DNA from: Emticicia sp. BO119
GTDB taxonomy: Bacteria; Bacteroidota; Bacteroidia; Cytophagales; Spirosomataceae
DNA: 64,000 bases
Direction of reading: 5' to 3'
NCBI RefSeq assembly: GCF_013912375.1
Contig: NZ_JACETV010000005.1
Span: 186,001-250,000, forward strand
The notes under the pieces are model-generated. The model did not search any database. It was not told the DNA's origin and was given only the letters and a program-made list of their open reading frames with translations. This document shows positions 30,592-32,094 of this stretch, piece by piece. Positions within the stretch are counted from its first letter, which is position 1. Each line of letters opens with the position of its first letter. The position numbers and the translations under genes were made by a program.

Positions 30592-30813
30592 TTACAGGCT
30601 AAAGTCAGCCTGCCATGCGACACACTTTTCAAAAAGTGTCGAACTTGTGTCCATTATCGTCAGATATTCATTTGACTGATAAGTGGTTGAAAGGTTATTG
30701 CGTTTAATAAAAATTTTTGCGTAATCTTCCTTCTCTTTTTGGGCAATTAAGTTGTTAATTTCAGTTAGAACTTCCTCAATAGTATTCAAAGTATTCTTTG
30801 TAGATGTTTTCAT
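30592..30813 (-). CDS. Possible small protein, unknown function
   Basis: A 73-codon frame starting MKTSTKNTLNTIEEVLTEIN. The amphipathic N-terminal helix, the normal Ser/Thr and acidic composition and the lack of rare stretches make it more protein-like than other short frames nearby. It has no signal peptide and no known motif. It lies between the DUF4835 gene and the gene-free repeat region, with no clear promoter. It may be a chance frame. Confidence 0.35.
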   Translation of the reverse strand: MKTSTKNTLNTIEEVLTEINNLIAQKEKEDYAKIFIKRNNLSTTYQSNEYLTIMDTSSTLFEKCVAWQADFSL

Positions 30814-31176
30814 CTTATGTTGGGTTTATGAAGTTTATGTCACGTAAAAAAGTACAAATTAGTTCTTTAAAAATGGTCTCACACGTCAACAAATTTCATA
30901 CCATTTTTTTTGAATTTTTCTTTTGATACCGTTCGATAAGTTTTTAATTTGTTTTAAAGGTTTTGACAATTTGAAAACAGATTTTTTTTCTTTTCTCAGA
31001 AAATTATCAAAAGGTAGCAAAAGTTTGTCTTTATGATTAAGCGGCATAAAATCAGCAAAAAACACAGCAATTTTAAGCTTATTTTCAGGCACCTTTAAAC
31101 AAAAATAAATACAAATCACCTTATTTACAAGGTTTTGGTATGATTATTTCTTGGATAATTATGGGACATCGTAATG

Positions 31177-31264
31177 GTCACTCCAACCCTCCCGTGAATG
31201 AGCATTTTTGCTCTCCTATTAATGCGTAAAGATGCTCATTGTAGGGAGGTGTTGGAAGTGATTA
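31177..31264. repeat. Long imperfect inverted repeat
   Basis: The left arm (about 31177-31206) contains CACTCCAAC, CCTCCC and AATGAGCAT. The right arm (about 31231-31262) has their complements ATGCTCATT, GGGAGG and GTTGGAAGTG in the mirrored order, with one-base bulges and a 3-bp mismatch. A nested small hairpin GAGCA/TGCTC sits in the loop. Transcribed, it would fold into a stable stem. It resembles a MITE or REP-type element, or a structured RNA. Confidence 0.6.
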
Positions 31265-31409
31265 AAAAACTAAGGGGACAGTTCGTAAGTTTTGTTTCTT
31301 TAATAATGGGTTCTAATGTTAGCGAAATATTTCTTTCGGATAATATTAGAAAAATACAATTTCATTTTTCAAATGATTTATATAATTCAATATATAATAA
31401 GAATATTCA

Positions 31410-31786
31410 CTCAATAGCAATTGTCAGTAAAAGTGGAGTCGACTTTCAACTCCACTTTTCTTTTTAATTACTTCTTACTCTTTGGGTTACTCAACGTGCT
31501 TTACTCAATCCTACTTACTCAATTTGTAATTAAACTACAGCAGTTTGTTCTTAGTGTTAAATTCTCTCAATAGCAATTGTCTTTCTATTCAACCTCAACT
31601 TAAAAAAAATTTATAGTAAACAGCAGTTTGTACGCTTCTCTAATTTTCTTTCAATAGCAATTGTCAACTTCTCTCTCTTATAAATTTACAGCGATATTAT
31701 AGAATACTTTTTAGGGTTATTTTAATAGCAATGATACTTTCTGGTATTTTTTGCCGTTTGGCATTCACTCAATAACAATTGTTTAC
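31410..31786 (+). repeat. Cluster of five interspersed 15-16 bp repeats
   Basis: CTCAATAGCAATTGTC occurs at 31410-31425 and 31566-31581, with a one-base variant at 31650-31665. Degenerate copies lie near 31722 (TTAATAGCAATGATAC) and at 31768 (CTCAATAACAATTGTT). Two copies are preceded at 28-29 bp by a second shared motif ACAGCAGTTTGT (31537 and 31620), giving a compound unit of about 45 bp. Start distances are 156, 84, about 72 and about 46 bp. No cas gene is present in the window. A decayed CRISPR array or a cluster of protein-binding sites are possible readings. Confidence 0.6.
31429..31465 (+). terminator. Strong intrinsic terminator in the gene-free stretch
   Basis: AAAAGTGGAGT (31429-31439) pairs with ACTCCACTTTT (31449-31459) around a 9-nt loop, followed by CTTTTT. 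No gene ends here, so it may close a noncoding transcript from the left. Confidence 0.75.
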
Positions 31787-32094
31787 TAAACTTTTGCACT
31801 CTAATAGCTTAACCATTCAAATCCGGTTTTATGTTGTTTCGGTTTGTTGATACAAATTTATACCCTACTTAAAGACTGATTTGACCTTTTTCGATGAACT
31901 GCACGAAATGACACCTTTTCGGAAACATTATTTGGATAATTGGTAGCAATAAAGAGGTAAATGGCAGTATATTTTAGACAAGTGGCAGAATTTTTAGTTT
32001 TTTGGTAGAAATAGAAGTATAAACAGGAAGATTTATTCCTACTCCAGCCCCCCTCACGGGCTGCTTCTCTAAAGTGTAGGCAATACAATAGAAA

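Follow-up and report, generated by a model that had tools for sequence, protein, structure and literature searches.

The repeat found in an apparently empty region of the window (the whole 64-kb stretch of DNA analysed, from the 6.57-Mb genome G000) is, judged by genome comparison, a long, lineage-specific version of a motif that recurs along a non-coding RNA. The gene for this RNA is conserved in Emticicia and related bacteria and previously undescribed, and comparative evidence supports it well. Its transcription is probably controlled by sigma-54, and we give a probability of roughly one half to the reading that it encodes a sigma-54-controlled regulatory RNA whose single-stranded motif would capture an RNA-binding protein, as a decoy similar to CrcZ.

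Repeat Copies in the Window

The repeat, CTCAATAGCAATTGTC, occurs five times, four times clearly and once weakly, always on the + strand. Its core is a short dyad, CAAT-AGCA-ATTG, and the units are imperfect, 15–25 bp long, and spaced at 156, 84, about 71, and about 47 nt. The copies and spacings described in the initial annotation were thus recovered, as was its accessory repeat at a fixed distance, which lies 29–30 nt 5′ of copies 2 and 3. When up to 3 mismatches were allowed on both strands of the whole window, only the four clear 16-mer copies were found, all within 380 bp and on one strand; 0.69 copies were expected from shuffles, and four were reached in 1 of 100 shuffles. The features are as follows.

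31406..31425, + strand: repeat copy 1, TTCACTCAATAGCAATTGTC, with almost no variation, immediately preceding the terminator (exact 16-mer from 31410)
31489..31523, + strand: three short partial copies, ACTCAA at 31489, 31503, and 31517
31537..31548, + strand: accessory repeat ACAGCAGTTTGT, with a second copy at 31620–31631; kept in sister species
31566..31581, + strand: repeat copy 2, exact 16-mer, 3′ of the terminator
31650..31665, + strand: repeat copy 3, 1 mismatch, conserved in three species
31717..31732, + strand: repeat copy 4, degenerate; better copies nearby in sister species
31768..31783, + strand: repeat copy 5, 2 mismatches, conserved in sister species

A decayed CRISPR array, a multi-site operator, and a new short repeat family had been offered as explanations; the last came nearest the truth. 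The likeness to the type II arrays with 47-bp repeats known from Bacteroidota lies in the spacing, which is ~75–80 bp in sister species (a period near 78 bp), and in a weak, sub-threshold DR47 match (20.5 bits, cut-off 39). However, CRISPR repeats are near-identical, 23–47 bp long, and regularly spaced, whereas these are short and imperfect. A cas9 search of G000 and an alignment of sister species, both proposed in the initial annotation, revealed no cas9 in the genome and an inter-repeat sequence that aligns across three species, unlike species-unique spacers. The reported lack of nearby cas genes was borne out by the neighborhood check; Cas1 loci and the genome's own two arrays, with unrelated repeats, are on other contigs. 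With the motif also common to several genera within a structured RNA gene, a CRISPR origin was rejected as extremely improbable. As a separate observation, one CRISPR spacer of G000 (L105:8758) matches 36 nt of the portal gene in the genome's own resident prophage (L009:335-370) exactly and is thereby self-targeting.

A Conserved Non-Coding RNA Gene

The description of the region as gene-free holds for proteins but not for RNA, as copy 1 lies inside the conserved gene, whose parts and divergent neighbor are listed below.

31163..31465, + strand: predicted gene for a non-coding RNA of about 303 nt, identified by conservation; start predicted at GGGACATC or immediately beside it
31176..31263, + strand: long 5′ hairpin, identified by covariation
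31429..31465, + strand: hairpin of an intrinsic terminator, AAAAGTGGAGT..ACTCCACTTTT, with a T-run after it, identified by covariation
30592..30813, − strand: divergent 73-aa reading frame, found in Emticicia only, with presence and absence matching those of the RNA

In a whole-genome search, 31150–31870 had 77–79% identity in two sister species, while six more species matched only in two blocks, ~31157–31263 and ~31393–31467, the second being repeat copy 1 plus the hairpin. A covariance model of the 5′ block identified homologues in four other genera of Spirosomataceae, and a refined model added two further loci, with rough E-values for both models; two hits of the refined model in G154 were discarded as generic palindromes. 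Altogether, 9 of 11 Emticicia genomes carry the RNA, as do four further genera of the family, and these counts are not independent because the genomes are related; outside the family, genomes were sampled. It is a single-copy RNA of about 210–425 nt across homologues. Neither the window region nor six homologous loci had an Rfam 15 match at the gathering threshold, and a literature search found no paper on RNAs in Emticicia.

Comparison of the homologues revealed no conserved reading frame within the RNA interval, and a candidate small protein in 31198–31467 was rejected since its frame is lost in relatives. The genes beside the RNA vary by genus, with NAD synthetase or glutamate synthase downstream, and these differences suggest that the RNA has a gene of its own and is not an mRNA leader. 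The divergent 73-aa frame occurs in 9 of 11 genomes with 49–92% identity and 25 invariant residues; it had no family match above the cut-off, and its predicted fold was uninformative (pLDDT 57). Other genera have a conserved small ORF (~55–61 aa, ending ...CFVFDRGIEF or similar) convergent to the RNA, which precedes the NAD synthetase gene downstream of the RNA (L157, L159-L162, L178, L179).

The 5′ block makes up a long hairpin whose 5′ portion of 27 nt does not vary; its apical loop, TGCTCTCCTATTAA, lies at about 31209–31222 and reads TGCTTTCCTAATAA in many relatives. Covariation confirmed the predicted fold: compensatory changes were found at 12 of 21 pairs and 92.7% of cells were paired, none of 500 shuffles was as good, and slid controls paired at 40–52%. 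In other genera, the stem sequence has diverged while pairing is retained. In cmsearch the hairpin model scored 138 bits, the window sequence being among those that built it. The terminator hairpin is shown by a GC pair that became AU in 4 of 9 sequences and by a z-score of −3.5 for its region, and it reads as an intrinsic terminator because a T-run follows it on the + strand only. A promoter-proximal stem predicted by RNAalifold (columns 7–41 of A2) was dropped because it overlaps the promoter.

A Sigma-54-Like Control Region

Three conserved elements lie upstream of the predicted start.

31135..31151, + strand: sigma-54-like −24/−12 promoter element TTGGTATGATTATTTCT, matching 10 of 13 consensus positions
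31004..31019, + strand: upstream enhancer-like site 2, TTATCAAAAGGTAGCA, at about −159
30924..30939, − strand: upstream enhancer-like site 1, TTATCGAACGGTATCA, at about −239

The promoter block, TTGGyAyGA-N3-TTTC, is conserved with its GG and C separated by 12 nt, and its distance to the downstream GGGACATC is 28 nt in 14 of the 17 homologues and 27 or 29 nt in the other three. The published sigma-54 consensus is TGGCAC-N5-7-TTGCT (PMC12316311); the candidate −12 element here is TTTC, not TTGC, with T for G at −13, and the start is predicted. With the strict pattern TTGGyAyG-N4-TTTC, the element is the sole match in the window. The one other strict site in the G000 DNA examined is ~40 nt upstream of an outer-membrane-protein gene that has a second rpoN and the gene for an NtrC-type activator in its vicinity.

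A sigma-54-dependent gene is expected to have activator sites ~100–250 bp upstream and an rpoN gene in the genome; candidate sites and rpoN were both found. The 16-mer TTAtyNANNGGtANCA has 29 sites upstream of the 17 homologous RNAs, vs. 0.6 in shuffles, with one to three per locus in all loci but two. Site 1 is one of two strong intergenic matches in the window, and site 2 is at −159 to −170 in all nine RNA-bearing Emticicia genomes. These putative sites are what activator sites would be expected to look like. rpoN was present in 13 of 13 genomes tested. Two copies of the gene occur in five RNA-bearing Emticicia, compared with one in both RNA-lacking Emticicia, a link made loose by two RNA-bearing outgroup genomes with a single rpoN. 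The second rpoN of G000 (L182:6871-9767, contig C6) adjoins an NtrC-type sigma-54 activator gene, with a kinase close by. A sigma-ABfr (−33/−7) promoter was rejected, its −7 box being lost across genera. Sigma-54 control of the RNA gene is likely.

Repetition of the Motif Along the RNA

Copy 1 is unchanged in eight Emticicia genomes, a ninth having one extra base, and its place beside the terminator hairpin is kept in 9 of 9 RNA-bearing genomes of the genus. Across the 17 loci, the core TCACTCAAT occurs in 1–6 copies inside each RNA, often with more past the terminator. Nine RNAs have 2–6 copies, e.g., five in G415 and six, 22–29 nt apart, in G284; eight have a single pre-terminator copy (G000, the window's own, together with G001, G008, G002, G006, G035, G464, and G420). 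The motif is reduced to TTTCACTCAAT(AGCAA) in other genera, where it immediately precedes the terminator and often recurs along the RNA, and copy 1 takes the shorter form TTTCACTCAATAGCAA. The motif is predicted to be unpaired with a value of 0.66, vs. 0.42 for other 9-mers with at least three G or C.

Core copies over the 17 loci number 56 sense and 6 antisense, where shuffles gave 3.0 expected and a maximum of 9. An array of DNA operators bound by a transcription factor might account for the nearly palindromic core CAATAGCAATTG and for isolated copies elsewhere, but this is very unlikely, given that almost every locus has its copies in a single orientation. The copies also lie inside an RNA with covarying stems, and genera other than Emticicia retain TCACTCAAT but have lost the dyad half AATTG. 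A mobile short repeat was rejected as well, given few orphan copies and 2-mismatch 16-mer matches also in two RNA-lacking genomes.

The position of the additional copies differs between clades: they are 3′ of the terminator in the window's clade and 5′ of it in the G003/G004/G007/G010 clade. The four copies past the terminator in the window may belong to read-through RNA or may be by-products. That copies in 31566–31783 arose by tandem duplication and decay of the RNA 3′ end and are functionless is a serious possibility, somewhat short of an even chance, and it fits either mechanism considered below for the RNA itself. A good terminator precedes them, copy 4 has degenerated, post-terminator copies are absent from G006 and G003, and the conservation excess of motif columns over other columns past the terminator was not significant (p = 0.11). 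On the other hand, the blocks holding copies 2, 3, and 5 are kept in three species (copy 2 within ~58 nt that are almost constant), and three other genera have post-terminator copies too.

Among the orphan copies are the following two. A 25-nt exact copy of the RNA's conserved end (AATATTCACTCAATAGCAATTGTCA) is carried by a G000 prophage (L009:1492-1516; G000:C24:58175-58199), between late genes and just past a stop codon. A phage attachment site was rejected, as this copy lies among late genes and not at the prophage boundary; the search for related phages found only distant Riemerella phages. In Emticicia sp. C21, a 22-nt copy (L049:2480-2501) comes immediately after the stop codon of a gene for a PepSY-type membrane protein, on the border of a conserved gene order.

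A Possible Decoy or Antisense RNA

In the decoy model, RNA polymerase with sigma-54 would transcribe the + strand gene at about 31163–31465, helped by an activator at the two upstream sites (about −160 and about −240). The long 5′ hairpin would stabilize the RNA and present its conserved C/U-rich loop, and a variable body and then the terminator would follow. The single-stranded motif UUCACUCAAU(AGCAAU) would be displayed once or several times, one copy just 5′ of the terminator, and would capture an RNA-binding protein, so that the mRNAs targeted by this protein would be released in response to a nutrient or stress signal. A sponge function fits poorly with the single pre-terminator copy of eight RNAs, unless their transcripts extend past the terminator by read-through.

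CrcZ, which is RpoN-dependent and titrates Hfq through six A-rich repeats (PMC4063720; PMC6292655), offers the nearest working model; by analogy, we infer the decoy role. Like CrcZ and CrcY of Pseudomonadaceae, the RNA would be a stand-alone transcript with an RpoN-type promoter, a repeated single-stranded motif, and a terminator. It differs in phylum, with no sequence relation shown, in its copy number of 1–6 within the RNA, and in its motif, UUCACUCAAU rather than A-rich (ARN)n. The CsrB/RsmZ decoys share a short repeated motif of variable spacing and copy number, but here there is no GGA-in-hairpin motif, the motif is predicted to be unpaired, and the promoter is of another type. Type III toxin-antitoxin RNAs (ToxIN), with ~36-nt tandem repeats directly before a toxin endoribonuclease gene, were considered and set aside: a Pfam scan of the neighbors found no adjacent toxin endoribonuclease gene, and the repeat spacing is irregular.

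The main rival to the decoy is multi-seed base pairing, in which a trans-acting antisense RNA would pair with several mRNAs through the repeated UCACUCAAU (reverse complement of the seed, ATTGAGTGA), the hairpin loop UGCUUUCCUAAUAA, or both. Such pairing would suit the predicted single-strandedness of the motif, the near invariance of its 20-nt form in Emticicia, and the conservation across genera of the apical loop, which resembles an anti-ribosome-binding-site. The Bacteroides sRNAs GibS and FopS, which pair via short conserved seeds beside the terminator, are a precedent (PMC11697453), and share with this RNA a phylum and a conserved single-stranded stretch near the terminator. FopS RNAs are multi-copy paralogues of ~65–70 nt with sigma-ABfr promoters, whereas the RNA described here is single-copy and longer, and has a long hairpin at its 5′ end as well as a sigma-54-like promoter. 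Antisense sRNAs do not usually repeat one seed within a single molecule, however, and no conserved complementary target was found in a search that was less than genome-wide. We consider antisense action rather unlikely, and favor the decoy.

Implications

Few regulatory RNAs are known in Bacteroidota outside Bacteroides, and most of the phylum is not known to possess the classical RNA chaperones. The RNAs might tentatively represent a new Bacteroidota family, in which sigma-54 and an activator would control multi-site RNAs titrating an RNA-binding protein via UUCACUCAAU, a motif that a prophage of the same genome would also have borrowed; we hold this broader proposal with less confidence than the decoy reading itself. 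A repeat that looks puzzling in an otherwise empty stretch of DNA can flag a non-coding gene, and this RNA, conserved, repeat-bearing, and apparently under sigma-54 control, would offer direct bait for an RNA-binding regulator and for the signal to which it responds.
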